Shown here piece by piece: positions 6,985 through 27,388 of a stretch of DNA of 27,502 bases (the first letter of the stretch is position 1; the number at the start of each line of letters is the position of its first letter). The notes beneath the pieces are model-generated. The model saw only the letters and a list, made by a program, of their open reading frames with translations, was not told where the DNA came from and did not search any database. This DNA comes from Candidatus Hydrogenedentes bacterium CG07_land_8_20_14_0_80_42_17 (GTDB taxonomy: Bacteria > UBA8481): the NCBI GenBank assembly GCA_002780065.1, contig PEWQ01000107.1, positions 1 through 27,502 of the forward strand, in the 5' to 3' direction. Position numbers and translations under genes: made by a program.

Positions 6985-6991
6985 GAGCCTT

Positions 6992-7019
6992 TTGACTTAA
7001 AAAAATATTCCTCTATTCT
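6992..7019 (+). promoter_or_regulatory. Promoter of the GspC-like gene
   Basis: TTGACT (6992-6997), a 16-nt spacer and TATTCT (7014-7019). The -10 box ends 6 nt before the ATG at 7026, so transcription would start at or next to the start codon. There is no Shine-Dalgarno sequence, in keeping with a leaderless mRNA. Confidence 0.55.
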
Positions 7020-7025
7020 TTTACC

Positions 7026-7847
7026 ATGAAAAAGTTTGAAACATTATTTTCAGCGGCATTTATGGGAATTGCAATTGCTGTTCTTATTTCTGCGGTGATT
7101 GCATTCAAACTTACACGAAAAATATTTATTGATTCAAAATTTCAGCCTTCTATCTTTTCAATAAATCCTTTCGAGCATACGCTGAAAGGCGATATCAATC
7201 TCTTCAAGGTCCAAGAAGAAAATGATGCTGTTGGAAAAATTGTTCCTATAAACACTGCGGCAGAGCCGCTCGGAAAGTATCTTTTAACTGGAGTAATAAA
7301 CTCAGGCCGGCAATCCGCGGCAATAATTAAGAACGAAGCCGGTGATTCTGCAGTTCTGGTTCGGCTTGGTGATAGAATTTTCGGCTCTTCTGAACATTTA
7401 GCAAGAGTTGAAAACGATGCGGTAATTTTAATCGGAGCTCATGGAAAACGTCGGCTTTATCTTGGAGTAATGTCTAACGAAGGGCCTGCAATTCAGGAGG
7501 TAAAAACAGCTCCAAATGGAACTGAAACTGGAATCGCATTATCACGTTCCGAAATTAATGCTTCAGTAAGTGTTGCGGAGGAACTGCTCGGGCAGACGCA
7601 GATACTGCCTGAAGTTCGAGAAAGCAAAATCATTGGGTTTAGAGTTATGAAAGTAGCTGACAACACTATTGTAAAAAAGATGGGCATACAGCCAGGCGAC
7701 ATAATAAAGGCAGTAAACGGGCAACAGCTCGATTCACTTGAACGAAGCACAGAGGTGTGGAATAAGATGAAGAGCGCTACCGAAATACACATGTTAGTGG
7801 AACGGAACGGTGCCGACAGTGTTATGTCATTTTATCTTAAACCTTAA
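7026..7847 (+). CDS. GspC-like type II secretion protein with PDZ domain
   Basis: 273 residues. A short cytoplasmic start is followed by one membrane helix (about 8-29), a linker, and a GspC homology-region-like beta domain at about 80-150 (KYLLTGVINSGRQSAAIIKN, VLVRLGDRI, RRLYLGV). A C-terminal PDZ domain spans about 200-273 (IIGFRVMKVADNTIVKKMGIQPGDIIKAVNG). GspC links the inner-membrane platform of the type II system to the secretin GspD. No other gsp genes are adjacent; only an ExeA/GspA-like gene lies nearby on the other strand. It is the only protein gene on the plus strand. A general PDZ-containing membrane protein is the alternative. Confidence 0.8.
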   Translation: MKKFETLFSAAFMGIAIAVLISAVIAFKLTRKIFIDSKFQPSIFSINPFEHTLKGDINLFKVQEENDAVGKIVPINTAAEPLGKYLLTGVINSGRQSAAIIKNEAGDSAVLVRLGDRIFGSSEHLARVENDAVILIGAHGKRRLYLGVMSNEGPAIQEVKTAPNGTETGIALSRSEINASVSVAEELLGQTQILPEVRESKIIGFRVMKVADNTIVKKMGIQPGDIIKAVNGQQLDSLERSTEVWNKMKSATEIHMLVERNGADSVMSFYLKP

Positions 7848-7881
7848 TATGAGCATAAGCATTTTAAAAAATAGGAAACTA

Positions 7882-7910
7882 TTGCATAGAACAGAAAAAT
7901 TTTAGATAAT
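7882..7910 (+). promoter_or_regulatory. Promoter of tRNA-Tyr
   Basis: TTGCAT (7882-7887), a 17-nt spacer and GATAAT (7905-7910, 5 of 6 to TATAAT). The expected start is near 7917, about 20 nt before the tRNA. Confidence 0.6.
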
Positions 7911-7938
7911 TCAACCTCATCTTTTTTTGAAATGCTCT

Positions 7939-8021
7939 GGAGGGATACCAAAGTGGCTAAATGGGGCGGGCTGTAAACCCGCTGGCTTACGCCTTCGATG
8001 GTTCGAATCCATCTCCCTCCA
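7939..8021 (+). tRNA. tRNA-Tyr (anticodon GTA)
   Basis: An 83-nt class II tRNA. The acceptor GGAGGGA pairs with TCCCTCC, the anticodon stem GCGGG/CCCGC closes the loop CTGTAAA with anticodon GTA, a long variable arm follows, and the T-loop is TTCGAAT. The discriminator is A; CCA is not encoded, as for tRNA-Thr in this window. It is convergent with apgM, which ends 29 nt downstream. Confidence 0.95.
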
Positions 8022-8050
8022 CGTTAATTATGTAAATCCTTAAATAATAG

Positions 8051-9214
8051 TTACGCATTCATCAGTCTGTCGAAAAGAATTGATCCTTTTATCGGTTTGA
8101 CCAAAGAGGTTCTTTCGCAATAGAGCTCGGGGCCGCGGACCGGTTTTGTAGTATCAGCAAATAAGAATGGCACAGGTGAAGAACCGTGTTTGCCGGTCTT
8201 CAAGTAAGTGGGATGATCAGGCGTAATCGCAATTGCAAGGTCGGATATCTCTTCTAGCAGTTTGCCTACGATCTCCTTATCTACGGCTTCGATAGCTTTA
8301 ACTTTCTCATCAATTTCACCCTCGTGACCAGCTTCATCCGTAGCTTCGACATGAATGACAACTACATCGTCGCCGGATTTTAAAGCGTCAACTGCAAATT
8401 CACCTTTGCCGCGATAATTTGTGTCGAAATATCCTGTAATTCCCGGAACTTTCAAAATGCGAAAACCTGCAAGAACTCCGATTCCTCGAATCAAATCCAC
8501 TGCGGAGATCAAAGAGCCTTTTGCCTCATAGCGTTCTCTAAGCGTCGGAAGTTTTACCGCTCTCCCCTGCCCCCACGGCCAAAGCGCGTCTGCAGTATTC
8601 TTTCCATTTTCTCTGCGCCTAATATTTACAGGATGATTAATTAAAAGTTTTCTGGACTCATTGACAATTTCTCCAATAACACCGCCGGGCATAAGTTCCG
8701 CTATTGGAGTACCGATGAAATCATGAGGAGGGAATGTTCTAATTTCAAAACCATCTCTGCGTCTCATCAAATGTCGATACTGCACTCCGGGATAAAGCAT
8801 TCCTCCGAGCGAATCAACTAAAGGTTTCATGGATTCTATAATTTTTCGAGACTCTTCAGTTGAGATATGTCCTGCAGAATAATCTTTCATTCTGTTGTCG
8901 TCAGAGATCGATACTGTATTAACTCGAAAGGCGATATCGCCTTCGCAAAGCTCAATATTCATCGAAGCAGCTTCGAGCGGTCCTCTGCCTGTATAAAACT
9001 CGGTAGGATCATAACCAAGAAGCATGAGGTTGGCGACGTCGCTTCCAGGAATCAAACCATCGGGGATTGTCCATAATTGTCCCGCTTCACCAATTTTTGC
9101 TAGTCTATCGATATTGGGCTTATACGCGGCTTCGAGAGGAGTTTTGCCATGAAGTTGATCTATAGGATCGTCCGATGCTCCATCGATAATGAGGAAAACT
9201 TTTCTGCCTGACAT
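8051..9214 (-). CDS. apgM: 2,3-bisphosphoglycerate-independent phosphoglycerate mutase, ApgM type
   Basis: 387 residues of the archaeal-type mutase, a branch of the alkaline-phosphatase superfamily that converts 3- and 2-phosphoglycerate in glycolysis. Metal ligand Asp11 lies in FLIIDGASD and the phosphorylated Ser58 in PGSDVANLMLLGYDP. The distal metal block is HVEATDEAGHEG, then ITPDHPTY and KHGSSPVPF. It follows hom after 4 nt, an arrangement I recall from deltaproteobacteria, where an ApgM paralogue has been suggested to act as homoserine kinase. No thrB is seen here, so that role is worth considering. TAAAAT lies 6 nt before the ATG, inside the end of hom, so it may also have its own leaderless transcript. 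Confidence 0.92.
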   Translation of the reverse strand: MSGRKVFLIIDGASDDPIDQLHGKTPLEAAYKPNIDRLAKIGEAGQLWTIPDGLIPGSDVANLMLLGYDPTEFYTGRGPLEAASMNIELCEGDIAFRVNTVSISDDNRMKDYSAGHISTEESRKIIESMKPLVDSLGGMLYPGVQYRHLMRRRDGFEIRTFPPHDFIGTPIAELMPGGVIGEIVNESRKLLINHPVNIRRRENGKNTADALWPWGQGRAVKLPTLRERYEAKGSLISAVDLIRGIGVLAGFRILKVPGITGYFDTNYRGKGEFAVDALKSGDDVVVIHVEATDEAGHEGEIDEKVKAIEAVDKEIVGKLLEEISDLAIAITPDHPTYLKTGKHGSSPVPFLFADTTKPVRGPELYCERTSLVKPIKGSILFDRLMNA

Positions 9215-9218
9215 TGAT

Positions 9219-10532
9219 TTATTTTATCACTGAGAAGAAGACGGTTTTAGCTTTAATAACAGAAAGCTCATCGATGCGTTTTTTTACCGCTTCAATTTTT
9301 GATAGAGAAGTGTTGTGAGTCATCAACGCAATAGGGACCGGAGCTCCAACTTCATTCGACTCGAGCTGAACGCAAGATTTAATCGAGATGCCTTCTTTGC
9401 CTAATACTCCGGTTACAGTTCCTAAAACCCCGGGTTTATCGGATGCAGAAATTCTCAGATAAAATTCTGAAACATATTTTTCCTTTGGAACAGTGAGCAT
9501 TGATTTCGCATTATTCATGCAATCAACATATTTTCTGCCGCCGCCTGAAGCTAATTCGAGACAATCAGATATTACAGCCGAAGCGGTAGGATATCTTCCT
9601 GCTCCCTTTCCGACAAAAATCTGCTGGCCGACCATATTGCCTTCGACAAAAACAGCGTTGATTTCATTATTAACCGACGCGAGTTGATGCGCGTTTGAAA
9701 TTAAAGTCGGAGCAACTTCAATCTCGATTCCTGCTCGAGTAATTTTTGCGCTTGCGATTAATTTTATCTTACAGCCCAACTGTTTTGCGTAACTGATATC
9801 TATATCGCTCACATCTTGAATTCCTCTAACGGGAATATTTTTCATATCCACGTTTATTCCTAATGCAAGCGCAGTAAGGAGTTGAATCTTGTGCGCGGCG
9901 TCGTAGCCTTGAATATCCAAAGTAGGATCTGCCTCGGCAAAACCAAGCCTTTGCGCTTCAAGCAGAGCAGAGCTAAAAGTGCATCCTGTCTCAGTCATTC
10001 TTGTGAGGATGAAATTGGTTGTTCCATTCAGAATTCCGTAAATTGTTTCTATTTTGTTCGCTGAAAGTCCCGCTCGAATTGCAGACAGAATGGGAATTCC
10101 TCCGGCTACAGCGGCTTCAAACGCGATTTCTCTTTTTGCGCGGCCTGCTAAGAGAAAAAGCTTTTTGCCGTGTTTTGCAAGAAGCGCTTTATTCGCAGTG
10201 ACTACATTCTTCCCCGCTTTTATTGCTCGGATTATTACATCCTGCGCAATGCCGGTTCCGCCAATAAGCTCAATAACAGTATCGATTGTCGGGTCCGAAA
10301 TTATATCGTCTATTGAAGATGTTCTTAGAGACTTTGGAACAACGATTCCATTTCCGAGTTTTGCGGACGCTGGCCAATTGATATCAGCAACACGCACCAA
10401 TTCCAGATTCGGACTGTCAGGCACATTATTCCACGGTTTATCTTTAGAGAGCAGAGCTTCAGCTACACCACCGCCTACAACTCCGCAACCTACCAAACCA
10501 ATTCGAAGCGATTTATTTTTTGTTTTGCTCAT
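9219..10532 (-). CDS. hom: Homoserine dehydrogenase
   Basis: 437 residues. The NAD(P)-binding Rossmann fold starts at RIGLVGCGVVGGGVAEAL (10-27). VVTANKALLAKHG carries the catalytic-site Lys115, and the family signature AEADPTLDIQGYDAAHKIQLL (199-219) carries Lys215. A C-terminal ACT domain (about 355-435, DKPGVLGTVTGVLGKEGISI) points to feedback control, usually by threonine. The enzyme reduces aspartate semialdehyde to homoserine. It has a GAGG ribosome site 11 nt upstream of the ATG and lies 18 nt after the PfkB gene. With apgM directly behind, it forms the end of the coaE-pfkB-hom run. Confidence 0.96.
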   Translation of the reverse strand: MSKTKNKSLRIGLVGCGVVGGGVAEALLSKDKPWNNVPDSPNLELVRVADINWPASAKLGNGIVVPKSLRTSSIDDIISDPTIDTVIELIGGTGIAQDVIIRAIKAGKNVVTANKALLAKHGKKLFLLAGRAKREIAFEAAVAGGIPILSAIRAGLSANKIETIYGILNGTTNFILTRMTETGCTFSSALLEAQRLGFAEADPTLDIQGYDAAHKIQLLTALALGINVDMKNIPVRGIQDVSDIDISYAKQLGCKIKLIASAKITRAGIEIEVAPTLISNAHQLASVNNEINAVFVEGNMVGQQIFVGKGAGRYPTASAVISDCLELASGGGRKYVDCMNNAKSMLTVPKEKYVSEFYLRISASDKPGVLGTVTGVLGKEGISIKSCVQLESNEVGAPVPIALMTHNTSLSKIEAVKKRIDELSVIKAKTVFFSVIK

Positions 10533-10550
10533 GCGTAAATTAACCTCTAT

Positions 10551-11459
10551 TTAAAAACTTGAATATTCTCTGAGAATTTTCAACCGCTCATCGAATTCTT
10601 TCATAGTCACAGTTTTAATCCGCTCGATCGAAAAAGATTCGCAGTTAAAGGATGCAATTACAGTTGCGTTTGCAACGGCTTTTCGAATAGCAGGGAAATC
10701 AGTATGATCAGTTTCAGCTTTCGCTAGTGACGCCATAAGTCCGCCGCCAAAAGAATCTCCGGCTCCAGTTGGATCCATAACAGTTTCCAATGGAAATGCA
10801 GGAACATGCGCCATATGTGAACTGTCAACTATCATTGCTCCGTCAGCGCCTTTCTTGATGATGACGACTTTCGGCCCCATGTGAATCACCTCGCGCGCCG
10901 CAGATATCAAATTAGATTTACCCGTCAGCATTTCAGCTTCGCCTTCGTTCAAAACCATCAAGTCAATTTCCGCCATCAATTTCTTCAGAGAATCAAGCTT
11001 TGAACTAATCCAAAAATTCATCGTATCAGCCGCAACAGTTCGAGGCCTTTTTACCTGTCTTAGAACATCGAGCTGAATATCAGGGTCAATATTAGCGAGA
11101 AAAAGATAATCCGGCTTTTTGAATTCTTCAGGAACTTTCGGCTGAAATTGACCGAAGACATTCAAACAAGTCTCTTCAGTCACAGCCGTATTCATATTTC
11201 CCTCATAGCGGCCCTTCCATCTGAAAGTGCTTCCCTTTGCCTTTTCAAGGCCTCTGCAGTCGATACCGCGTTTTTCGAGCAACTTGACTATCTCATCAGG
11301 AAAATCATCGCCAACGACTCCGATTAAATGAATTGGTTTGTAAAGCAGAGAAGCCGCAACGCTGAAAAAAGTTGCGGCGCCGCCGAGCGCCTCATCAGCC
11401 TCGCCGTGCGGAGTTTTAACAGAATCAAATGCAACAGAACCTACAACAAGCAAACTCAT
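10551..11459 (-). CDS. PfkB-family carbohydrate/nucleoside kinase
   Basis: 302 residues of the ribokinase superfamily. The N-terminal GGAATFFSVAASLL is the substrate-side glycine pair, NEGEAEMLTG (171-180) is the usual N-x-x-E motif, and DPTGAGDSFGGGL (229-241) holds catalytic Asp235 and the anion hole. FFSVAASLL and the TMNFWI block resemble a subgroup often annotated as adenosine/sugar kinase, but the substrate cannot be read from the sequence. GGAGG lies 7 nt before the ATG. The start overlaps the SPOR gene stop as ATGA, so the two are translationally coupled. Hom lies 18 nt downstream. Confidence 0.9.
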   Translation of the reverse strand: MSLLVVGSVAFDSVKTPHGEADEALGGAATFFSVAASLLYKPIHLIGVVGDDFPDEIVKLLEKRGIDCRGLEKAKGSTFRWKGRYEGNMNTAVTEETCLNVFGQFQPKVPEEFKKPDYLFLANIDPDIQLDVLRQVKRPRTVAADTMNFWISSKLDSLKKLMAEIDLMVLNEGEAEMLTGKSNLISAAREVIHMGPKVVIIKKGADGAMIVDSSHMAHVPAFPLETVMDPTGAGDSFGGGLMASLAKAETDHTDFPAIRKAVANATVIASFNCESFSIERIKTVTMKEFDERLKILREYSSF

Positions 11460-12076
11460 TTTTTAACCTCCAGTAAAAATGCCGATGCTAATTCACCTCT
11501 GCGTATCATCGCTTTAATATCGTTTTGAGCAACAGTGGCGGAAGGATAATCTGCCTCCATTGCAATGATTCGAAAGAATTTTCCTTTGTTTGGAATTTCT
11601 ACCTCTTCTATTCTTGCGTTTTTGAAACCTTTAACTTTAAGAGCATTCAGTTTGCGTTCGGCTTCAGCGCGGGCAAGAGCAGGAGTATCTCCGATTGGAA
11701 TCGAGCCTGCAACAATTGCATAATGCTTTTGCGGATTTGGCGAAGAGATTTGATTCGTATGCGGGCTAGGAGGAGGCGCCGGCTTTGTGGAAGTGACTGT
11801 CGGCTGAATCGGTATTACTTTTTCAGAAGAAGTTGAAGGAAGATTTGATTCAGCAGGCTGAGAAGGTTTTGCCGGAGTTTCTTCGATTGATTGAGGCACC
11901 TCTACAATTTCCGTTGTGACCGGCGGAGAAGGAAAAAACCAGCGTCCAACTGCAAAGCCTATGAGAAGCGTAATGATTTCCAAACTGAATAAAGCTATTG
12001 CAATTACAATAATTCTTTCTTTATTCAAGGCAATCATCATGTCGCCTCTCGATCTTTTTGGCGTTCTAATAATCAT
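11456..12076 (-). CDS. Membrane-anchored SPOR-domain-like protein
   Basis: 206 residues. A positively charged start is followed by one membrane helix (about 22-46), a proline- and serine-rich linker (about 50-115), and a compact C-terminal domain. That domain (about 118-206, HYAIVAGSIPIGDTPALARAEAERKLNALKVKG then KGKFFRIIAM) has the spacing of a SPOR peptidoglycan-binding repeat. Such proteins collect at septal, stem-peptide-poor peptidoglycan. The first ATG has GGAG 4 nt upstream; ATGs at 12038-12040 and 12035-12037 follow an AGAGG and are good alternatives. It overlaps the PfkB kinase gene by 4 bp. Function beyond cell-wall association is inference. Confidence 0.75.
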   Translation of the reverse strand: MIIRTPKRSRGDMMIALNKERIIVIAIALFSLEIITLLIGFAVGRWFFPSPPVTTEIVEVPQSIEETPAKPSQPAESNLPSTSSEKVIPIQPTVTSTKPAPPPSPHTNQISSPNPQKHYAIVAGSIPIGDTPALARAEAERKLNALKVKGFKNARIEEVEIPNKGKFFRIIAMEADYPSATVAQNDIKAMIRRGELASAFLLEVKK

Positions 12077-12117
12077 AGTTCTCCATCATACTAGAATATG
12101 TTATCAATTCATTCAGC

Positions 12118-12732
12118 TTATTTCACAATTTTTTTTGCAATTTCCACAGCAAGAATTTCCAGTTCTTTTAGGGACCCGTTATTTACAGCTACATAATCGG
12201 AAAGCATTGATTTTTTTTCACTGCGCCATTGTCTTGAATCTCGCGTATCAAAGTCTTTAAAACGGCCGGAACGCTCTTTTCGCAAGAAATCTTCTGATGT
12301 GACGGTTATAGTTTTATCACATTCTTTATTCAATCCGCTTTCGAAAAGCAACGGCACATCAAGGATATAAAAACCTGTATCAGAGGTCATAGACAAGATT
12401 TTTTCAATAACTGCAGGATGAACTATTTTGTTCAAAGCCTGAGCAGAAACGTCAGTATCAAATGCGCGTTTAGCAAGTTCAGTGCGATTAAGAGTTCCAT
12501 TCGGCATTCTAATTTCCGCACCGAATGTTTCAATTAATTTGACCGCAATAGAATTTGAATCGTGTTTTTCTTTATCTATTTTCTGCATCGAATTACTTAT
12601 TAAGTTCTTTGCAACCTCATCTGCATCAATGAGTAAAATATTTTCATTAGTCAAAGTTCTGATGGCGTTATTGAGGAATTTCGAAAAAGTTGTTTTTCCG
12701 GCTCCAATAGAGCCTGTGACGCCAATTATCAT
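12118..12732 (-). CDS. coaE: Dephospho-CoA kinase
   Basis: 204 residues. The P-loop GSIGAGKTT lies at 7-15, followed by ILLIDADEVAKNLI, HPAVIEKI, and the YILDVPLLFESGLN block typical of CoaE. It phosphorylates the 3' hydroxyl of dephospho-CoA in the last step of CoA synthesis. The start overlaps the stop of the WecA-like gene as ATGA, with AAAGG 11 nt upstream. A 41-nt gap separates it from the SPOR-like gene. Confidence 0.95.
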   Translation of the reverse strand: MIIGVTGSIGAGKTTFSKFLNNAIRTLTNENILLIDADEVAKNLISNSMQKIDKEKHDSNSIAVKLIETFGAEIRMPNGTLNRTELAKRAFDTDVSAQALNKIVHPAVIEKILSMTSDTGFYILDVPLLFESGLNKECDKTITVTSEDFLRKERSGRFKDFDTRDSRQWRSEKKSMLSDYVAVNNGSLKELEILAVEIAKKIVK

Positions 12733-13739
12733 TCTACTTTTACCTTTGCAATATAAATTGCTCCTATAACAGCGGCAAAAAATACAATCGAATAAAGAAT
12801 CACTGCCGGGATAAACTCCAGCATGGTAGCGGCGGCGGCGGAAACAGAAAGAAGAAAAGAAATTGCGACTAGAACTCTGACTGTATTCTGAACTGAAAAA
12901 CCAAGTTTGACCATTCTTAAAGCTATGTGATCAGGACTGCCGTGAAACGGAGACTTGCCTTTCTTTATTCTAAAAAAGGAGACGAGGATTGTGTCGTAAA
13001 TGGGTATCCCCAGAATTAGAATCGGAGCGAAGATCGCAATATTATTGAACGTCGTATAAGCGCCTTTAATCGTTGCGGCGGCAAGAACGAATCCTATGAA
13101 CTGAGCTCCGGCATCTCCCATAAATATTTTTGCGGGATGCAAATTGAAGAAGAGAAATCCGGTTATTGAGCCTGCAAGAGAAATGCAGAGAACGGCGAGA
13201 GTGATATCTCCGGTCATCAATCCAATAATTCCAAGAGTCAGTGAAGCTACGCCGCAAATTCCACCGCAGAGCCCGTCCATGATATCAATAATGTTAACTG
13301 CGTTCGTTATTCCCACTATCCATAGCAAAGACAGAGCTATATTTATTGAAGGCGAAAGGTATTTAATATTGAGATGAAGGTTCATGCCGACAAGAATTAT
13401 TGCGGCTAGAGTCTGAATAAGAAATTTCGGAAGAATGCGCATAGGCTTCCAATCATCTATGCCTCCTGCAACAGCAATTAATAGGGAAGCGATAATTATG
13501 GCGATGCCTTCGGAATAATTTTGGCTGGAAAGATTGCTCAGAAAAAATGCCGAAAGCATACCGAGAATAATTGCAATGCCGCCGCCGTAAGGAATTGGAT
13601 TTTTGTGTCGTTTCAAGCCGCCGGGAAGATCAATCCACCCGATCTTTTCCGAAAGTATAGCGATAGCCGGAACAAAAAGCGAAGAAAGCCCAAGCGAAAT
13701 AAAAAAAGAGACTAATGCTATAACGTAGAAATTATTCAT
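12729..13739 (-). CDS. WecA/TagO-like undecaprenyl-phosphate sugar-1-phosphate transferase
   Basis: 336 residues of an MraY/WecA-type integral membrane enzyme with around ten hydrophobic segments. It moves an N-acetylhexosamine-1-phosphate from UDP-sugar to undecaprenyl phosphate, starting O-antigen or wall-glycan synthesis. Key residues: GLKRHKNPIPYGGG after helix 1, Asp95-Asp96 in GGIDDWKPM, NAVNIIDIMDGL (146-157), and KIFMGDAGAQFIG. The cytoplasmic HGSPDHIALRM replaces the HxHHR loop that separates WecA/TagO from MraY. The exact sugar is not determined. TACAAT lies 7 nt before the ATG without a Shine-Dalgarno sequence. It appears to be the first gene of the run to apgM. Confidence 0.9.
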   Translation of the reverse strand: MNNFYVIALVSFFISLGLSSLFVPAIAILSEKIGWIDLPGGLKRHKNPIPYGGGIAIILGMLSAFFLSNLSSQNYSEGIAIIIASLLIAVAGGIDDWKPMRILPKFLIQTLAAIILVGMNLHLNIKYLSPSINIALSLLWIVGITNAVNIIDIMDGLCGGICGVASLTLGIIGLMTGDITLAVLCISLAGSITGFLFFNLHPAKIFMGDAGAQFIGFVLAAATIKGAYTTFNNIAIFAPILILGIPIYDTILVSFFRIKKGKSPFHGSPDHIALRMVKLGFSVQNTVRVLVAISFLLSVSAAAATMLEFIPAVILYSIVFFAAVIGAIYIAKVKVE

Positions 13740-13885
13740 TGCAGTAATTGTATGGGAAAATAAGTAAAAAATAAAAAGGAAAAGGGGGCAGGCATTAGGT
13801 TATGACTTTAGCAAACAAAATATATTGTGATAGATTCATTCAAGCTCATATAAAGTTAATGTAACATGGAAAAATAATTCTACAT

Positions 13886-14224
13886 TTACGACTGAGCTTT
13901 TTTCTTAATGTCTCTTATCGCGCTCTTGTCAAAATCAATTTCAACTTTTCCACCAAGACGTAAAGTGACGGTATCTTTATCGACCGAGTAAACCTGACCG
14001 TGCATGCCTCCAACTGTCACTACTTCATCGCCTTTCTGAAGCTTGTTACGCATATTCTCGCGAGCTTTTGCTTCTTTTCTCTGAGGAGAAATGACAATGA
14101 AATAAAAGACAAGAATAATTAATCCCATCATCCATATTGAAGGCCAGATGCTTGCTTCCTGCGGCTCAGCTTGAGCGACGAGCGCAGATACTAGAATAGA
14201 ATTTGAAAATAAAGTTATCATCAT
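13886..14224 (-). CDS. yajC: Preprotein translocase subunit YajC
   Basis: 112 residues. One membrane helix (about 29-45, WMMGLIILVFYFIVI) is followed by the family signature SPQRKEAKARENMRNKLQKGDEVVTVGGMHGQV and a small basic C-terminal domain. YajC joins SecDF at the Sec translocon. It lies 82 nt after tgt, the usual tgt-yajC order, but no secD or secF follows; the next gene is the WecA-like gene, 146 nt on. TAATAT lies 6 nt before the ATG. Confidence 0.94.
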   Translation of the reverse strand: MMITLFSNSILVSALVAQAEPQEASIWPSIWMMGLIILVFYFIVISPQRKEAKARENMRNKLQKGDEVVTVGGMHGQVYSVDKDTVTLRLGGKVEIDFDKSAIRDIKKKAQS

Positions 14225-14230
14225 AAAATA

Positions 14231-14258
14231 ATATTATTCGTTAAAATAAAGAAAGCAA
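14231..14258 (-). promoter_or_regulatory. Putative promoter of yajC
   Basis: On the minus strand TTGCTT, a 16-nt spacer and TAATAT, ending 6 nt before the ATG. A second candidate further upstream has a perfect TTGACA (14297-14302) with an 18-nt spacer to CTTAAT (14273-14278), which would give a leader of about 40 nt. Confidence 0.4.
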
Positions 14259-14306
14259 TTTTTAAAATTCAAATTAAGATTACACATTCTCGAAAGTGTC
14301 AAAGCG

Positions 14307-17332: not shown

Positions 17333-17369
17333 TGAAAGAAGATATCATAAACGCGAAAAAAAATCATCC

Positions 17370-18602: not shown

Positions 18603-18668
18603 GATTATTTTTATTCAATAAAAAATAAATACGCATTAATAAAATTTGCCCTTGCCAATTAAATATTT

Positions 18669-19343
18669 TTAATCGTTTTTGGATTTTACACGCCGAAACG
18701 GATGAATCCAATGTGCAAACGGTCTTACTGCTCTGCTCTGAATGTAAACTTTTCCGTGCCCGCTAAATCTGCATACAAAAAATTCTCCGCTCAATATAGT
18801 TGCCTTCCAATTCCCTAACTTCTCGACTGAATAATTCAAAGTAGAATCGAATGCGACAATATGCCCTGTATCGACGATATATTCTCCGTTCACTTCAATC
18901 TCTTCTATTGCACCGTAAGATGATAAGAGCAAAACTCCGGACCCGGAACATTTCAAAATAAAAAAACCTTCACCTGAAAGCAGTCCTTTACCCAGTCCCT
19001 GAAATTTAGTTTCAATTTTTATGCTAGGAGAACCGGCAAGATAGCCGTCCTTTTGAACAAATATTTCGCCATTCAAAGGTAGATTAATTATGTCTCCAGG
19101 AGCTCCAGGAGCCAACAGCACCATTCCGCCGTTCCTAGCGGTAAACGTATTCATGAAGAAACTTTCGCCGCCGAGCAATGATCTCTTTGCCGCTTCGAAT
19201 ATTCCACCGCGCATTCCGGTATCTATCTCAATTCCTGAACTCATTGCAACCATAGCGCCGCTCTCTGCAGAGATGCTTTCTCCGGAAATAAGGAGAACCT
19301 TTGCAAGCGAGAAGTCAGGCTTGCCGATAATTTCTATATTCAT
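18669..19343 (-). CDS. AIM24 / TIGR00266 family protein, third copy
   Basis: 224 residues with the family pattern: SAESGAMVAMS, GDIINLPLNGEIFVQKDGYLAG, GEGFFILKCSGSG, then the conserved end YIVDTGHIVAFDSTLNYSVEKLG with LSGEFFVCRFSGHGKVYIQSR. The fold is a beta-rich pseudo-symmetric unit with no known catalytic residues; the mitochondrial relative AIM24 affects inner-membrane organisation. There is no signal peptide or membrane segment. It overlaps copy 2 by 4 bp (ATGA). The C-terminus ends in a basic tail (FRRVKSKND). Confidence 0.88.
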   Translation of the reverse strand: MNIEIIGKPDFSLAKVLLISGESISAESGAMVAMSSGIEIDTGMRGGIFEAAKRSLLGGESFFMNTFTARNGGMVLLAPGAPGDIINLPLNGEIFVQKDGYLAGSPSIKIETKFQGLGKGLLSGEGFFILKCSGSGVLLLSSYGAIEEIEVNGEYIVDTGHIVAFDSTLNYSVEKLGNWKATILSGEFFVCRFSGHGKVYIQSRAVRPFAHWIHPFRRVKSKND

Positions 19344-20023
19344 GATGACCTCGGAGGTAAAAGCGAACCAACAAATTTTCCGAACGCATTGAGATTATGG
19401 CTTTGAGTGTAAAGCCGTCCCTTTCCGCTGAAACGTGCAACTAAACCTTCTCCGGAAAAGAATGCTCCGAGCCAAGACGAACCGAATTTTGTAATTGAGT
19501 AAGAAAGAGACGGTTCGAATGCGACAATGTGACCGGTATCGACTATAAATTCTCCATCTAAATCGAGTGCATCAATCGCACCGAAAGAATTCATGAGGAC
19601 CGAGCCTTGTCCGCGTGCGTGCATCATGAATAGCGATTCGCCGGCAAAAAAAGAACGCGCGCCTTGCCACTCGCCATCAAGAGAAATTTCGTCATCACAC
19701 CCTAAAAATGAACCTGACTGAATTATCAAGCCGCCTTTCAATGTGTGCTCGATGATGTCTCCGATTTGAGTAGGAGCTACAAGAATGTGCCCATTCAAAT
19801 TTGAATAAGCTTTGTTGATGAGAAAAAATTCTCCGGAAAGCATAGACTTTACCGCACCCAATAACCCTCCGGAACGTGCTCTCTTCACCTTTTGAGGGGT
19901 AAGAGAAACTTCTGCGCTCTTTGAGACCATCGAGCCTGCTTCGACAAGAAATGATTCTCCTTGTGAAAGCTCTATTCTAGCCATCGCGTAGGCCGGCTTA
20001 TGCAGAATTGAAATCTTTCTCAT
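19340..20023 (-). CDS. AIM24 / TIGR00266 family protein, second copy
   Basis: 227 residues. It has EAGSMVSKS near the start, LLGAVKSMLSGEFFLI, GDIIEHTLKGGLIIQSGSFLG, and the end block FIVDTGHIVAFEPSLSYSITKFGSSW with FFSGEGLVARFSGKGRLYTQS. It is clearly paralogous to its two neighbours but diverged in the first half (an extra charged stretch near residues 40-50). It begins 4 nt after copy 1 and overlaps copy 3 by 4 bp, so the three are probably made in fixed proportion. Confidence 0.88.
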   Translation of the reverse strand: MRKISILHKPAYAMARIELSQGESFLVEAGSMVSKSAEVSLTPQKVKRARSGGLLGAVKSMLSGEFFLINKAYSNLNGHILVAPTQIGDIIEHTLKGGLIIQSGSFLGCDDEISLDGEWQGARSFFAGESLFMMHARGQGSVLMNSFGAIDALDLDGEFIVDTGHIVAFEPSLSYSITKFGSSWLGAFFSGEGLVARFSGKGRLYTQSHNLNAFGKFVGSLLPPRSS

Positions 20024-20027
20024 CGCA

Positions 20028-20711
20028 TCACGCCGGGAGCCATGGAGAAATCCATGAAACTAATGAAGAAACATTTCTTGAGCAGATCAATATTTTCCCC
20101 ATTCCAGAAAATTCAACTACAAGTCCTTCGCCGGATAATAAAGTTGATTTCCAACTTCCGACTCTTTTTATTCTATAAGTTAGAGAAGGTTCCCATGCCA
20201 CAAGATGTCCAGTATCCACAGTCATAGAGCCTTTCACTGTTTCTTCGGAAATGATTCCATAGCCGGAAGCGAAGAGATCACCTGTTCCTGAAGCTTCTAA
20301 AATAAAAAGACCACTGCGTCCAAAAAGACTTTTGCATCCGCCGTAAACTGTCGAAATTGTTATTCCTTCAGAAGCGGCAAGAAACGCACTGGCAGAAAGT
20401 CTCATAGTATTTCCAATTAAAGGTATGTGAGCAATGTCACCGGGCATAGTAGGAGATAGACCGAGCTTAGCCGGCGAGGTGGCTCGATATTGCGAAATAA
20501 ATAAACTTTCTTTTGAGAGCATCTTACCGAGCGCTCCAAAAAAACCTCCATGCAGTTTTGTTTCAATCGATAGGCCATTCGAGTAATAAACCATGGAGCC
20601 TGCTTCAGAATAGATTGAGCCATCAGAAGTAAAATCGACTTGCAATGTGCTGAAAGAAGGTCTATTCGCAATTTTCCATGAATAACCTTTTCCTATTCCT
20701 TGATCTGACAT
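20028..20711 (-). CDS. AIM24 / TIGR00266 family protein, first copy
   Basis: 227 residues. It has YSEAGSMVYYSNGLSIETKLHGGFFGALGKML, GDIAHIPLIGNTMRLSASAFLA, and the end block MTVDTGHLVAWEPSLTYRIKRVGSWKSTLLSGEGLVVEFSGMGKI. It leads the triplet; the gap to folC upstream is 51 nt. There is no Shine-Dalgarno sequence, but TAATCT lies 6 nt before the ATG. Molecular function is unknown for the family in bacteria. Confidence 0.88.
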   Translation of the reverse strand: MSDQGIGKGYSWKIANRPSFSTLQVDFTSDGSIYSEAGSMVYYSNGLSIETKLHGGFFGALGKMLSKESLFISQYRATSPAKLGLSPTMPGDIAHIPLIGNTMRLSASAFLAASEGITISTVYGGCKSLFGRSGLFILEASGTGDLFASGYGIISEETVKGSMTVDTGHLVAWEPSLTYRIKRVGSWKSTLLSGEGLVVEFSGMGKILICSRNVSSLVSWISPWLPA

Positions 20712-20717
20712 ATTGAA

Positions 20718-20745
20718 AGATTACATGATGATAACTCAAATACAA
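20718..20745 (-). promoter_or_regulatory. Putative promoter of the AIM24 triplet
   Basis: On the minus strand TTGTAT, a 16-nt spacer and TAATCT, ending 6 nt before the ATG of copy 1. It lies in the short gap after folC, so the triplet may be transcribed separately from accD-folC. Confidence 0.45.
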
Positions 20746-20762
20746 AATTATTTTTTCGGACT

Positions 20763-21953
20763 TTATATCTTTCCTTCAGGCGGGAAAGGGCCGCAGTTCT
20801 CGCCGTATTTCAATTTCAAAAATTCTCCGAGTAAATAAATCGAACCGGTCACTAAAAGTATGCTTTCATTATCAACTAAAGATAAAGCTTTTTCATAAGC
20901 TTTAAAAAGATTAGAAATTTTTATCGCGGAGCTTGGCGCTTTTACTTCTTCAGCGTTCAAGCCTCGCTTATTACTTACCTCAGTAATCACCCATTGATTC
21001 ACACGGTCGTCAAGAATTCGGATAAAATTTTGATGGTCTTTATCATTTAAGAATGCGGCAAGCGCCACTATTTTTTTTTCAGAAAACTGCAGAAGCAATT
21101 TATGCAAAGCCTCTGCGGCGTGAGGATTGTGCGCGGCATCGAGTATAACAGTCGGATTCGATTGAATAATCTGAAACCTACCTGGCCAATTTGCCCTGCT
21201 GCATGCCTCTCGGCAGAAGTCTTCTTCAAATTTTAAATTCTGAGTTCTGCAAAAAAGCTCTGCAGATTTGACAGCAATTTCTATATTCAAATTTCGGAAA
21301 GAGTCAAAATTGTATTTCACAATATGAGATTCAGCTCCGATTCTATTGCACTCATTTTTCAAAGCAGGCAGGTTTGTTCCCAAAATTGCCGGTCTTCCCT
21401 TCCTGACTATTCCAGCCTTCTCCACGGCAATCTTCTCCAATGTATCTCCGAGCCATTGAGTATGTTCAAGCCCGACAGATGTAATAACGCTGAGAACAGG
21501 ATCGAGCACATTGAATGCGTCTAATCGGCCGCCAAGCCCTACCTCTACAATCGCAACATCAACTTTCTCTTCTTTGAAGTATTCTATCGCCATAGCAGAA
21601 AGAGTCTCGAAATAAGTCGCCTGCTGATCGTCGAGAGATTCTATCTTTTCGTATATTCTTTCAAAGTCGGGTTGAGAAATGGGCGCGCCGTTTATTACAA
21701 TTCTTTCTTTGATATCGCAAAGGTGAGGCGAAGTAGTCAAGCCTGTTTTGAAACCTCGCTCCCGAAAATAATTATGTAAAGCTGAACAGACCGATCCCTT
21801 TCCATTTGTGCCTGCAACAAGTATTACAGGGAATTCAGGCCTACCGAGTTTATCGAGCAAAGCCCGCATTCCATTAAGTCCGAGTCTCCAGCCCCGCTCG
21901 ATTCTTTGCTCAAGCCTAAGAAGAGAGTTCAAAGTTAATTTTTCAATCAACAA
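20763..21953 (-). CDS. folC: Folylpolyglutamate synthase / dihydrofolate synthase
   Basis: 396 residues of the Mur-ligase family. The ATP loop VAGTNGKGSVCSAL spans 46-59, followed by SPHLCDIKERI, VEVGLGGRLDAFNV, SVGLEHTQWLGDTLEKIAVEKAGI, and ILDAAHNPHAAEAL in the C-terminal half. It adds glutamates to (dihydro)folate. The start codon is TTG (21951-21953), with a second TTG right behind it; no ATG fits the family start. It overlaps accD by 11 bp, the common accD-folC pair. Confidence 0.95.
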   Translation of the reverse strand: MLIEKLTLNSLLRLEQRIERGWRLGLNGMRALLDKLGRPEFPVILVAGTNGKGSVCSALHNYFRERGFKTGLTTSPHLCDIKERIVINGAPISQPDFERIYEKIESLDDQQATYFETLSAMAIEYFKEEKVDVAIVEVGLGGRLDAFNVLDPVLSVITSVGLEHTQWLGDTLEKIAVEKAGIVRKGRPAILGTNLPALKNECNRIGAESHIVKYNFDSFRNLNIEIAVKSAELFCRTQNLKFEEDFCREACSRANWPGRFQIIQSNPTVILDAAHNPHAAEALHKLLLQFSEKKIVALAAFLNDKDHQNFIRILDDRVNQWVITEVSNKRGLNAEEVKAPSSAIKISNLFKAYEKALSLVDNESILLVTGSIYLLGEFLKLKYGENCGPFPPEGKI

Positions 21954-22779
21954 ATTTAAAGATTCGGATGAGAGTCTTTCGCATCTCGTTTCGCTTTACG
22001 ACCATATCAAGCTGACCGTGCCCGAGAAGAAATTCCGAACGCTGAAAACCTTGAGGCAATTTTTGTCTTATGGTTTGTTCGATGACACGCGGGCCAGCAA
22101 AAGCAATCAAAGCCCCAGGCTCAGCTATAATTAAATTTGTTGCGGTTGCAAAGGACGCCGTAGTTCCTCCTGTTGTCGGATCAGTTAAAATCGAAATCGA
22201 CAGAAGTCCCGAATCTTTGTGCTTCGAGATGGCTCCGACAGTCTTAGCCATCTGCATAAGAGAAAGAATTCCCTCCTGCATACGTGCTCCGCCGGAGGTT
22301 GCCACAATTACGAGATGTCTTCGATCTCGAGTTGCGTTTTCTGTAAGCCGAGCAATTTTTTCTCCGACAACAGAACCCATCGAGCCGCCCATGAACTCAA
22401 AGTTCATAATAGATATTGCAATCTTTCTTCCGTCTATATCTCCATATCCGGTAATAACTGCATCGCGTTCCTGAGCCTTAGCTCTGGATTCGTCCAACCT
22501 TATCTTGTAAGGCTTCTCATCAACAAATTCCAACGGATCGCATGAAATCATCCTTACATCGTGCTCCTCAAATGTATTCGGGTCTAATAAAAGTTTTATC
22601 CATTGCCGAGCGGGAATGCGGTGGTGATATCCGCATACGGTGCAGACGAAGAGGTTGTCCTTCAGTTCATTTTTCGGAAGCATTGTTTCGCAGCCGAGAC
22701 ATTTAGTCCATAGCCCGGTCACCGCTTCCTCTTTCGCTATTCTGCGAGAACGATATCTAACTCTCTGAAACCAATTCAT
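21943..22779 (-). CDS. accD: Acetyl-CoA carboxylase carboxyltransferase subunit beta
   Basis: 278 residues. The N-terminal zinc ribbon uses Cys27, Cys30, Cys46 and Cys49. The crotonase-like carboxyltransferase domain follows (MNFEFMGGSMGSVVGEKIARL, SGGARMQEGILSLMQMAKT, TDPTTGGTTASFA, EPGALIAFAGPRVIEQT). With AccA it transfers the carboxyl group from biotin to acetyl-CoA, committing carbon to fatty acids. TAATAT lies 6 nt before the ATG and there is no ribosome site. Confidence 0.97.
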   Translation of the reverse strand: MNWFQRVRYRSRRIAKEEAVTGLWTKCLGCETMLPKNELKDNLFVCTVCGYHHRIPARQWIKLLLDPNTFEEHDVRMISCDPLEFVDEKPYKIRLDESRAKAQERDAVITGYGDIDGRKIAISIMNFEFMGGSMGSVVGEKIARLTENATRDRRHLVIVATSGGARMQEGILSLMQMAKTVGAISKHKDSGLLSISILTDPTTGGTTASFATATNLIIAEPGALIAFAGPRVIEQTIRQKLPQGFQRSEFLLGHGQLDMVVKRNEMRKTLIRIFKFVD

Positions 22780-22785
22780 ATTAAG

Positions 22786-22813
22786 ATATTATCAGAAAAA
22801 ATATTAATGGCAA
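22786..22813 (-). promoter_or_regulatory. Putative promoter of accD-folC
   Basis: On the minus strand TTGCCA (5 of 6 to TTGACA), a 16-nt spacer and TAATAT, ending 6 nt before the ATG. The predicted transcript would start at the accD start codon. The rest of the 123-nt gap to the TPR lipoprotein gene shows no other structure that I can support. Confidence 0.5.
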
Positions 22814-22902
22814 ATAATGTGCAATAGAAGTTTTTCTCAGAGAGCGCACAGAGAAGACCAAATCAATGCCCTCCAACTTAATTTCTTAACTGCTGCTTGT
22901 GC

Positions 22903-24849
22903 TTATCTGCTCGGTTTATATGTACGCATGCGGTCAATCGATTCTCTTACGATTCTCGAAGCAACAGTCGGTTCTTCTGAAAGGTTGATTTTGTAACTAT
23001 ATTCGAATGGAAAAATCTTTTCATAATCGACACGCAATAATCTTAAATCGAGAATCAAAATGTTCGTATCATATTCATCTCCGGTAATTCTTCCATGAAC
23101 AATCCAGTCAGCTCCAATGCTTGAGCGCAGCGGATACCATGTGTCGGGGATGTTATCGAAATCGTGCATGCGAACCATTTCATCGATATAATTCGTCAAA
23201 CTTTTCGGAGCATATTCAAAATCTTGATTAGCTTGAGTTGACGATGCAAAAGTCATGAACAATGAATTGGAAAGTTTCATAGCAGAGATATCGCCGAGTT
23301 TCCACTCAAAGCCTTCAACATTGACTTTCTGCTTTTCTTCACTGAATTGACTTCGTTCGCGCATTTGAGGCGTAATTCTGTTCTCACGATAGAATTGCTC
23401 TTCCATATCATCCCAAAATACTTTTTCGGAAACTGTGACATAATTTTCTGAAATAGATTTCAGCCGCCACCACGACTCGACAGCTTTAGCAGAATTGCCC
23501 AATAGATTATTAAGTATCATCGAGTGATAAAGCCCTGAAAGAATCGAAGGCGTATCTCCGGCTCGCTCGGAGCGTTTCAAACCTTCAGCAACATTTCGCA
23601 TCGCCGAATTGTAATCTTTCAAATCGATGTATGAAGAAGCAAGCCGATAGAAATCTTTAGGTGCAGCAGTAGACCATTCTCGTTTCAAAAGCGTTTCCAA
23701 GTTCGCCGCGCCGTCTGCAGTCCTGCCGGCAGAAAAATATACATCTATGATAATTCTGTCTATTTTTTCATATTCGGGATTCGACGGATAAAGCGAGAGA
23801 AAGCGTTCGCCGAAAGCTAGAGCTTCTTCACGATTGCCTCGCGACATCTCATCGATAGTCAGCCAGAAAAGTGCGTATGCGTGTTTTGCGGAATCAAAGT
23901 CCATTCGCTCTGCAATTCTTCGAAAATAATTTCTTGCTACAGATGTATCGCCTCGAGCCGCATGATACTGAGCCAATCTAAATACAAGCTTTGCCGCTTC
24001 GGTATCATTTCGCGGATCGATGAGACCGAGAAGATTTCTAGCAATATTCGCCGCGTCATCGATTTTTCGTTCGGCATCGTAAATATCCAAAAGCATTTTC
24101 TGAGCGGAAAGAGTCAAGTCAGGCATTGAGTAGACATTAATTAGTTCAAGCAAAAGATTTTCGGCTGAACTGTAATCAGCATACGCCATTTTATACCGCG
24201 CAAGATCGAGCATAGCTTGCGGCCGCTCGAGATGTTTCGGGAATCGCTTAATAAACTCTTCTAATGTCTCCGCAGCCTCCTGCCACTTTGCAGACTTTTC
24301 GAGCGCTTTTGCTCGCCCAATCAAAGCCGCAGGCACGTAAGGCCCGTTTCCGTAGCGTTCAAGATATATTTTATATTCATCTGCCGCTTCAGCAAAACGT
24401 AATTGAGCCGCCGCAGAACGCGCCAATAAAACTCTGACGTCAGGCACTAAAGAATTATCAGGAAACTTCAATAAAAAGTCTTCGAGTTCTTCCGAGCATT
24501 CAACAAATTTTCTTTGAGCAAAAAGAATATGCGCCTTTAGATATCTTGCCTGAGGCTCCAGATAATGTCCAGGATAGCGAGTCATTAGAATTGCCACAGC
24601 TCCTTCAGCTTCAGGATAATTTCCTAATTGATATTCGCTCCACGCAAGTCCCAAATACGCATTCGGAAGAGACAAAAGTTTCGGGTTGTCTTTTATGAAT
24701 TGCCTGTATTCCTCAGCAGCGCGGTCATAGCGCTTAGCGGCATAATAGTCGTCCGCAGTTCGAACCGTTTCACGGCAAGAAAGTGCGAATACAGCAAAAA
24801 GGCAAAGAAAGAAAGAATAAAAAAATAAACTATTTTTTCGCAAATTCAT
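22903..24849 (-). CDS. Large TPR lipoprotein with CsgG/TolB-N-like C-terminal domain
   Basis: 648 residues. A signal peptide with a lipobox-like ALSC at its end (Cys25) suggests lipidation. From about 30 to 470 there are many TPR/Sel1-like helical repeats of the kind found in BamD and YbgF (AAEEYRQFIKDNP, AEGAVAILMTRYPGHYLEPQARYLKAHILF, YKIYLERYGNGPYVPAALIGRA). The end (about 520-648), with the segment GADWIVHGRITGDEYDTNI followed by LILDLRLLRVDYEKI, resembles the ADYVLxGxV...LRLVD pattern of CsgG/TolB-N-like outer-envelope domains. Role unknown; envelope assembly is a guess. It overlaps the upstream cyclic-nucleotide-binding gene as ATGA. Confidence 0.8.
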   Translation of the reverse strand: MNLRKNSLFFYSFFLCLFAVFALSCRETVRTADDYYAAKRYDRAAEEYRQFIKDNPKLLSLPNAYLGLAWSEYQLGNYPEAEGAVAILMTRYPGHYLEPQARYLKAHILFAQRKFVECSEELEDFLLKFPDNSLVPDVRVLLARSAAAQLRFAEAADEYKIYLERYGNGPYVPAALIGRAKALEKSAKWQEAAETLEEFIKRFPKHLERPQAMLDLARYKMAYADYSSAENLLLELINVYSMPDLTLSAQKMLLDIYDAERKIDDAANIARNLLGLIDPRNDTEAAKLVFRLAQYHAARGDTSVARNYFRRIAERMDFDSAKHAYALFWLTIDEMSRGNREEALAFGERFLSLYPSNPEYEKIDRIIIDVYFSAGRTADGAANLETLLKREWSTAAPKDFYRLASSYIDLKDYNSAMRNVAEGLKRSERAGDTPSILSGLYHSMILNNLLGNSAKAVESWWRLKSISENYVTVSEKVFWDDMEEQFYRENRITPQMRERSQFSEEKQKVNVEGFEWKLGDISAMKLSNSLFMTFASSTQANQDFEYAPKSLTNYIDEMVRMHDFDNIPDTWYPLRSSIGADWIVHGRITGDEYDTNILILDLRLLRVDYEKIFPFEYSYKINLSEEPTVASRIVRESIDRMRTYKPSR

Positions 24850-25313
24850 TTTCTCAACAATTTCTCGTTTTCAAGTTCCGCGAGTTTCAGGTTTGTGGTT
24901 CGCAGGCGAATAGAGAGATGACATGCTATTTGGCTAATTATCTTCAATGCGGCAAACGACGATTTATTCATCAATTGCCGGAAATTGTCGAAACCAATCT
25001 TCAAGATTACCGATCTTCTTGTCACCACCGCGCCGGCAGAACGAGGCTGTCCGTCGAGAAGAGCAAGTTCTCCGAAAAAATCACCTTCAGAAAATGTTCC
25101 AACAACTTTTCCTTTATTATCATCAATGCTTTTAATTATCTTTACCGCGCCGACAGCAACAATAAACATAGCATCGCCCGGATCTCCTTCCTCAAAAAGA
25201 ACAGAATTTTCCTGAAGCAGTTTCTTCTCGATGAATGGTTTTACACTAGCTAATTCCTCGGGCTCAAGCGTGCTAAAAATAGGAACTGTTGGAAGAAAAT
25301 CGTTAATATTCAT
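24846..25313 (-). CDS. Cyclic-nucleotide-binding domain protein without DNA-binding domain
   Basis: 155 residues, essentially one cNMP-binding beta-roll: IFSTLEPEELASVKPFI, VLFEEGDPGDAMFIVAVGAVKI, and the phosphate-binding cassette GDFFGELALLDGQPRSAGAVV with the Glu and Arg that hold the cyclic phosphate. It ends in a helix (LSIRLRTTNLKLAELENEKLL) and lacks the Crp helix-turn-helix. It should sense a cyclic nucleotide and act through protein contacts. It is coupled to the TPR lipoprotein gene by a 4-bp overlap. There is no Shine-Dalgarno sequence; TAAAAT lies 9 nt upstream. Confidence 0.88.
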   Translation of the reverse strand: MNINDFLPTVPIFSTLEPEELASVKPFIEKKLLQENSVLFEEGDPGDAMFIVAVGAVKIIKSIDDNKGKVVGTFSEGDFFGELALLDGQPRSAGAVVTRRSVILKIGFDNFRQLMNKSSFAALKIISQIACHLSIRLRTTNLKLAELENEKLLRK

Positions 25314-25322
25314 AATTGCTTT

Positions 25323-25351
25323 ATTTTATTTCGAAAATTAATTGTATGCAA
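25323..25351 (-). promoter_or_regulatory. Putative promoter of the cNMP-binding/TPR-lipoprotein pair
   Basis: On the minus strand TTGCAT, a 17-nt spacer and TAAAAT, ending 9 nt before the ATG. It lies in the 55-nt gap after trpA and would uncouple this pair from trpBA. Confidence 0.45.
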
Positions 25352-25368
25352 AGACTTAGGTTTTATTT

Positions 25369-26175
25369 TCATCTTCTTAACTCTTCGATAAATTCCCGAA
25401 CAGCCTGGGGAGAAGATTCCGCTCTTCGAACAACAGCCGACCCTACAATTACGCCGTCAGCTATCGCAGAGAGCATTTTAAAATGTTCAGGCTTCGATAC
25501 TCCAAATCCAATTCCTACTCTGTGAGCCTTTTTGTTTTCAGATTTATCAATTGAGCGAATATTTTCTACGAACGTCGAAAGCTTATCGCTCATTTTATCT
25601 CTCTCGCCGGTAACGCCTTCAAGACCGAGGGCATAAATAAATCCTGACGAGCTCTTTGATATCAAACGCAGTCTTTTTTCAGAGCTATTCGGCGCAGCCA
25701 AAAAAACTGTTGCGAAATTTTTCTTTCGAGCTGATTCAATAAGAAGTTCAGCTTCGTCAGGAACAAGATCCGGAACGATTACTCCATCTACACCGGATTC
25801 CAAAGCAGAATCAACAAACCGTTCAATTCCGAAATGCAGAATAGGATTGTAATAGCACATGAGAATAAGCGGCTTTGACACGGTTTTTTTTTGGTCGGCC
25901 GCTAGGTCGGCCGCTAGTCTTAAAGTTTTACGAAGTGTCATTCCATTGCGGAGAGCTCTGTCCTGAGCATGTTGAATAACGGCTCCATCCGCAATAGGAT
26001 CCGAAAATGGAACTCCGATTTCCAGCATGTCAGCTCCTGCATTGAACGCGGCTTTCATGCACTCTAAAGAACTCTTTTCGTCAGGAAAACCTGCAACAAG
26101 ATAGGGGATTAAAATTTTTCCTCGTTCAAATGCAGACTCTATCGCGCTAACGCCGCGGTTATTAATGACCGTCAT
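25369..26175 (-). CDS. trpA: Tryptophan synthase alpha subunit
   Basis: 268 residues, full length. Catalytic Glu52 lies in [11 protein letters not shown] and Asp63 in IADGAVIQ, followed by [46 protein letters not shown] and GVIVGSAVV. It cleaves indole-3-glycerol phosphate and channels indole to TrpB. Residues 87-94 are a doubled LAAD encoded by an exact 12-bp tandem duplication in the loop before LMCYY. It overlaps trpB by 4 bp (ATGA). Confidence 0.97.
25893..25916. repeat. 12-bp tandem duplication inside trpA
   Basis: The unit GGTCGGCCGCTA occurs twice in a row (25893-25904, 25905-25916), just after a run of nine T. It is in frame and adds one LAAD tetrapeptide. Both copies are identical at every base, so the duplication is recent or selected. 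Confidence 0.9.
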
Positions 26176-27353
26176 AACTCACCATGTCCCTTCATCCAAT
26201 CTTCTACAATCGAAAGGTCTTTGTCACCACGACCGGAGCAATTAATAAGTATGAACTCATTTGAGCCTTTCATTTCTCGAATCACGTAAGCAATGGCATG
26301 CGAAGATTCAAGCGCAGGCATTATTCCTTCCGTCTGCGTCAGCATTTTGAAAGCGGATATTGCCAGGTCATCGGAAATGCTGCTGTAACTTGCGCGTTTT
26401 GTTTCGAATAGAAAAGCATGTTCAGGCCCTACTGCGGGATAGTCGAGTCCTGCAGAGACTGAATACGTCGGGAGAATATTTCCATCCTCGTCTTGTAAGA
26501 GAAAAGTTTCCGTTCCATGCAAAACTCCAATATGATTAAGCGGATCTGAATCGAACATAAACCGAGCGGCATGTTCTCCCCTGCCGGTTCCGCGACCGCC
26601 GGCTTCGACTCCAATCAGCTTCACCGAATCATTAAGAAATGCAGTAAAGATCCCAATCGCATTCGAGCCGCCTCCAACGCATGCTACGACAGTATCAGGC
26701 AATCTTCCCGTCATTTCTCGAAACTGAATCTTCGCTTCGTCACCAATCACACGTTGAAATTCTCTAACCATTGTTGGATATGGATGAGGACCAAGCGCGG
26801 AACCGAGGCAATAATGCGTAGACGCAAGATTCGAAACCCAATCGCGCAGTGCCTCATTAATTGCGTCCTTCAATGTTCTGGAGCCTGCAGATACGGGGCG
26901 CACTTCGGCGCCTAAAAGACGCATACGAACAACATTGTGCGCCTGCCGCTTCATATCAGTAGTGCCCATATAAACAACACATTCCATTCCAAGCCGAGCC
27001 GCAGCAGTCGCAGTCGCGACTCCGTGCTGACCTGCTCCTGTTTCAGCAATCAGTCGGCGCTTGCCCATCCGCTTTGCAAGAAGCGCCTGCCCGAGCGAAT
27101 TATTGAGTTTATGCGCGCCTGTGTGTAAAAGATCTTCTCGCTTGAGATAAACTTTTGCTTGAACCTTGTCAGAAAAAGTCGGCACAAATGTTATAGGTGT
27201 GGGTCTTCCAGCATAAGTACTCAGCAATTCATTAAGCTCTTTTTGGAATAAAGGATTTGCCCTGAAATATTCGAATGCCTCTGTCAATTCCTCAATAGGA
27301 ACCATGAGAGTTTCCGGAACATAAATTCCACCGTATCTTCCAAATCGTGTCAT
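26172..27353 (-). CDS. trpB: Tryptophan synthase beta subunit
   Basis: 393 residues of the standard TrpB1 form. PLP-binding Lys82 lies in [15 protein letters not shown], followed by [36 protein letters not shown], the phosphate-binding GGGSNAIG, and the C-terminal [11 protein letters not shown]. It condenses indole and serine to tryptophan. It leads trpBA; trpF and the rest of the pathway are not in the window. There is no Shine-Dalgarno sequence; TACCCT lies 6 nt before the ATG. Confidence 0.98.
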
Positions 27354-27359
27354 AGATGG

Positions 27360-27388
27360 AGGGTATCATCTGAAGAAGCGATAGGCAA
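27360..27388 (-). promoter_or_regulatory. Putative promoter of trpBA
   Basis: On the minus strand TTGCCT, a 17-nt spacer and TACCCT, ending 6 nt before the ATG. A start here leaves no room for a tryptophan leader peptide or attenuator. Confidence 0.4.

Follow-up and report, generated by a model that had tools for sequence, protein, structure and literature searches.

TANNNT boxes at a fixed distance from the start codon predict leaderless transcripts for a minority of transcription units in a Hydrogenedentes lineage

In a minority of the transcription units of the Candidatus Hydrogenedentes genome studied here, a sigma-70-type promoter very probably abuts the start codon, and the predicted product is a leaderless mRNA whose first base is the A of the ATG. 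The −10 box (TANNNT) stands at a fixed position, is accompanied by the other parts of a promoter, is excluded from genes that have a Shine–Dalgarno (SD) sequence, and recurs in a genome from a second family of the phylum; no other reading of these boxes fits nearly as well as leaderless transcription. Most of the remaining genes, and almost all of those inside operons, lie outside the leaderless class, and the commonest recognizable signal among them is the SD sequence.

The window, that is, the whole stretch of 27,502 nt that was analyzed, corresponds to contig C125 in a genome bin of 2.39 Mb (G000; 87% complete, 207 contigs, 42% GC). Our sample of this genome is 634 kb including the window; the 606 kb outside the window comprise 60 further stretches with 426 genes. 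For comparison, 855 kb were sampled from a second genome (G001; 55% GC) that belongs to the same phylum and the same order but to a different family; each sample is approximately one quarter of its genome. Genes were called with a script that is blind to upstream motifs and takes the 5′-most ATG as the start unless this is clearly non-coding; the calls were not curated. An earlier choice of starts by the maximum of the coding score gave wrong starts and smeared the peak described below over −12 and −13, so it was dropped in favor of the 5′-most ATG. We then tallied TANNNT at each offset from the start, with −12 denoting a box that ends 6 nt before the start codon. Genes in which the stretch between the upstream stop codon and +60 offers no alternative in-frame start are referred to as start-certain. 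As a positive control for the gene caller we used small, GC-rich plasmid stretches of Deinococcus, in which the (small) numbers show a modest peak at −12 to −14.

The original prediction, made from the window, listed ten genes with a TANNNT box 6, 7, or 9 nt before the ATG, and all ten boxes are present in the sequence at the distances claimed. Seven of the 27 window genes carry the box at −12, compared with a genome background of ~2.8% per position (P = 7e-6; P = 2e-4 after correction for 30 positions). As had also been claimed for several of the genes, a TTG is located 16–17 nt above the box; this holds for five of the seven (gspC, yajC, AIM24 copy 1, accD, and trpB) and for the exeA-like and cNMP-binding genes. 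On the plus strand, the −10 of the gspC-like gene (TATTCT, 7014–7019) ends 6 nt before the ATG at 7026 and is preceded by a −35 (TTGACT, 6992–6997) 16 nt upstream. On the minus strand, the same 6 nt separate the ATG from the −10 boxes of yajC (TAATAT, 14231–14236; −35 TTGCTT, 14253–14258), AIM24 copy 1 (TAATCT, 20718–20723; −35 TTGTAT, 20740–20745), and accD (TAATAT, 22786–22791; −35 TTGCCA, 22808–22813), each with a 16-nt spacer, as well as that of trpB (TACCCT, 27360–27365; −35 TTGCCT, 27383–27388), with a 17-nt spacer. The boxes of uvrB (TATCTT, 17339–17344, minus strand; 6 nt) and the WecA-like gene (TACAAT, 13747–13752, minus strand; 7 nt, that is, −13) have no TTG −35. Two further boxes on the minus strand end 9 nt before the ATG (−15), those of the exeA-like gene (TATACT, 6662–6667; −35 TTGAAT, 6684–6689), for which a leader of about 2–3 nt is predicted, and of the cNMP-binding gene (TAAAAT, 25323–25328; −35 TTGCAT, 25345–25350). 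The remaining gene with a box at −12, apgM, should probably be removed from the list: its box (TAAAAT, 9221–9226, minus strand) is probably a chance occurrence, because it covers the last codons and the stop codon of hom, the preceding gene of the operon (4 nt upstream), and because it lacks a −35.

The divergent neighbors rpmB and gspC provide a contrast within the window. The rpmB promoter on the minus strand (−35 TTGACA, 6979–6984; N16; −10 TAAATT, 6957–6962) has its −10 24 nt from the ATG, with an SD sequence (AAAGGAG) within the leader, whereas TTGACT-N16-TATTCT of gspC, a gene predicted to be leaderless, stands at 6 nt without an SD sequence; the two promoters are arranged back-to-back (6932–7026), with their −35 hexamers 7 bp apart. 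Elsewhere in the window, three AIM24-family genes occur in tandem (18669–20711), the first led by a TANNNT box and the third with an SD-like string in front of it, and short direct repeats (gttatgtgtccccagattag..., ccagattac) are found at the contig end, beyond sppA (1–100).

The original prediction had named a positional peak of TANNNT across the genome as its test. Such a peak is found, and it is sharp: of the 426 genes in the 606 kb beyond the window, 33 carry TANNNT at −12 compared with 10.7 expected per position, and no other offset near the start peaks comparably. The same measure applied elsewhere gives no peak; non-start ATGs of the same genome (n = 19,964) are flat at ~1.5%, and 382 genes of Clostridia put through the same pipeline are depleted at −12 (3/382).

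The start-certain genes have the strongest peak (15 of 73 at −12 outside the window, 2.3 expected; P = 3e-8), and this observation bears on the alternative that the promoters are real but the starts are miscalled, translation beginning at a downstream codon that is preceded by an SD sequence. Among the 43 unit-leading genes without an SD sequence that have TANNNT at −12 or −13 (hereafter TA-led genes), seven, accD included, do have an SD-preceded in-frame start within 30 codons, and a small number of the starts may thus have been miscalled; however, such codons are not clearly rarer in other genes (12/126). In the window, glnA has an in-frame ATG 27 nt inside its first ATG (4968–4997; first ATG at 4997), and GGAGG is located 6 nt before the internal ATG; glnA had been cited as an SD gene, and the SD sequence is indeed there, but it precedes the internal ATG, which is probably the true start, and not the ATG at 4997. 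Against miscalled starts as the explanation for the peak, residue 1 aligns with residue 1 in several orthologues from the second genome (uvrB and two others), and a gap of exactly 6 nt is not what a promoter positioned independently of the ATG would show. We therefore regard this alternative as very unlikely.

The boxes belong to promoters that have a −35 hexamer 16–18 nt above the −10, as is characteristic of the sigma-70 type. In the first genome, TTG is found 16–18 nt above the box in 23 of the 43 TA-led genes but in only 17 of the 126 other unit-leading genes without an SD sequence (P = 5e-7). The complete arrangement, TTG-N16–18-TANNNT ending exactly 6 nt before the start, occurs in 17 genes, compared with 0.4 in block shuffles; the complete promoters of SD genes are mostly at least 30 nt from the start. 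A pyrimidine is favored at −1 (26/31 vs 56/126; P = 6e-5), and the start codon of the TA-led genes is ATG in 41 of 43 cases, although the gene caller favors ATG. The canonical −10 element spans −12 to −7 relative to the start of transcription, and by this spacing +1 should fall on the A of the ATG. At an ordinary sigma-70-type promoter so placed (TTG −35, spacer of 16–18 nt, TANNNT −10 ending 6–7 nt before the start codon), RNA polymerase would initiate at this A; the mRNA would have neither a leader nor an SD sequence, and ribosomes, either as 70S particles or as 30S subunits with IF2 and initiator tRNA, would have to initiate on the 5′-terminal AUG.

The distribution of the boxes among gene classes is also that of a promoter. 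TANNNT occurs at −12 in two of 92 SD genes (3.2 expected) and in 31 of 169 unit-leading genes without an SD sequence, that is, the two classes are mutually exclusive. In the first genome, 33 of 261 unit-leading genes have the box at −12 compared with seven of 191 operon-internal genes (background 3.4, a marginal excess), and six of these seven operon-internal boxes are TA[AG], as the stop codon of the preceding gene would give. A non-SD ribosome-binding element in the style of Bacteroidota or Cyanobacteria (AU-rich, S1-type), with no role in transcription, has a precedent in the non-SD genes with AU-rich upstream regions already on record (PMC5397173). Yet operon-internal genes also need ribosomes and have at most the marginal peak just described; moreover, such an element would not account for a TTG at promoter spacing above the box, a position fixed to the single nucleotide, or the pyrimidine favored at −1, and loci of Bacteroidota and Ignavibacteria analyzed with the same script have no peak at −12 (3/106). 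This alternative is highly improbable.

The promoter reading extends to the second genome. There, TANNNT occurs 17 times at −12 and 17 times at −13, each compared with 3.7 expected (chance occurrences are rarer because the genome is 55% GC); the boxes at −12 are found in 17 of 392 unit-leading genes and in none of 160 operon-internal genes. The TTG −35 is enriched in the TA-led genes (8/29 vs 4/187), which have the same preference for a pyrimidine at −1. With this second peak, the idea that the boxes merely reflect a high AT content around starts, or in-frame stop codons picked up by the choice of the longest reading frame, may be dismissed as scarcely tenable: the upstream regions are AT-rich, TAA, in frame at −12, opens four of the seven boxes in the window, and apgM is a probable stop-codon case, but TA[CT]NNT, which is never an in-frame stop codon, peaks equally at −12 in the first genome (16 vs 2.5; P = 9e-9), offsets −9 and −15 lack a comparable peak (6 and 9 boxes, respectively, vs 31 at −12), and the −35 and −1 signals are coupled to the box, so that the TA[CT]NNT peak and the coupled −35 refute such an artefact as a general account.

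Orthologous genes allow the two families to be compared gene by gene. In reciprocal-best pairs, four of nine TA-led genes of the first genome are also TA-led in the second, compared with two of 39 other genes (P = 0.008, although there are only nine TA-led pairs); one shared TA-led pair has a GTG start in both genomes. It could well be, although we would stop short of expecting it, that leaderless initiation is ancestral in this deep phylum, so far represented by a handful of genomes, and conserved gene by gene, kept through the drift in GC content (42% and 55%) and the divergence of the families, with particular genes leaderless since the common ancestor. In the second genome, uvrB (69% identical) has an SD-like GAGG in place of the box, and accD has TTGTCT-N16-TAGAAT 9 nt before the ATG; this switch to an SD-like leader and the promoter at 9 nt indicate that the trait also turns over. 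Neither yajC nor trpB of the second genome has a clear box at the corresponding place, and AIM24 copy 1 has no sequence match there.

We estimated the number of genes involved from the excess occupancy at −12 and −13. In the first genome this excess is 6.4% of all genes (CI 3.5–9.5), ~11% of unit-leading genes (95% CI 6–16%), and about 16–17% of start-certain genes [(15 + 2 − 4.7)/73]; in the second genome it is 4.8% of all genes and 6.8% of unit-leading genes. These percentages are lower bounds because the count is limited to TANNNT at two offsets. The predicted leaderless share is thus between about one ninth and one sixth of unit-leading genes. SD-led initiation is commoner: 41% of the genes in the first genome have an SD-like string, and the 3′ end of its 16S rRNA retains an intact anti-SD (CCTCC), so the SD sequence is not depleted and replaced genome-wide as in the Bacteroidota type. 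Furthermore, TANNNT is absent from both −12 and −13 in 126 of the 169 unit-leading genes without an SD sequence, too many for leaderless initiation to be claimed as the general mechanism of non-SD genes. The original statement, that transcription units of this lineage begin at the start codon, was, therefore, too general; it is the best reading of the boxes for a minority of units.

As a separate observation on the translation machinery, the assembly of the first genome, 87% complete, yielded no multi-domain ribosomal protein S1, but only single S1 domains in frames of 796 and 540 aa; the second genome encodes a six-domain rpsA (contig C3, 15157–16680). The absence of rpsA from the first genome, if true, would bear on leaderless translation; we claim no cause.

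The arrangement itself is already known from tuberculosis bacteria and Deinococcus; what is new is its occurrence in a poorly sampled phylum. Leaderless transcripts have been mapped in Mycobacterium tuberculosis, in which approximately one quarter of the genes that have a primary start site belong to this class (Cortes et al., 2013; PMC3898074). As in M. tuberculosis (PMC3898074), we find a TANNNT −10 centered 7–12 nt upstream of the start site, a predicted start of transcription at the start codon, a pyrimidine at −1, and a mixture with SD-led genes; unlike M. tuberculosis, in which no −35 is conserved and GTG and ATG serve as start codons to a similar extent, the present lineage commonly has a TTG −35 and its starts are nearly all ATG, and the leaderless share estimated here is lower. 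In Deinococcus, TANNNT ~6–7 nt before the reading frame is an alternative to a GGAG motif and has been shown to act as the −10 of a promoter (Zhong et al., 2025; PMC12340547). The boxes described here have the same short distance and the same relation to SD-type motifs as those of Deinococcus-Thermus, but, counted as the excess over background, they lead only ~6% of all genes, compared with approximately one third of the genes in D. radiodurans (PMC12340547). More broadly, TA-led genes, with a TA-like signal ~10 nt upstream of the start codon that was read as leaderless, as is ours, have been reported from 207 of 953 bacterial genomes, chiefly in Actinobacteria and Deinococcus-Thermus (Zheng et al., 2011; PMC3160421); none of the groups listed in that study could be matched to the present lineage. 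The StartLink authors (PMC9581028), citing GeneMarkS-2, give 21.6% as the share of bacterial species in which leaderless transcription is predicted. Our literature search found no earlier report of leaderless genes for such a lineage.

These results extend to a further bacterial branch the expectation that many transcription units begin translation without a leader. Gene callers that expect an SD sequence may misplace starts in such genomes. Zheng et al. (PMC3160421) argued that leaderless initiation is ancestral, and its patchy but recurrent use bears on this question.
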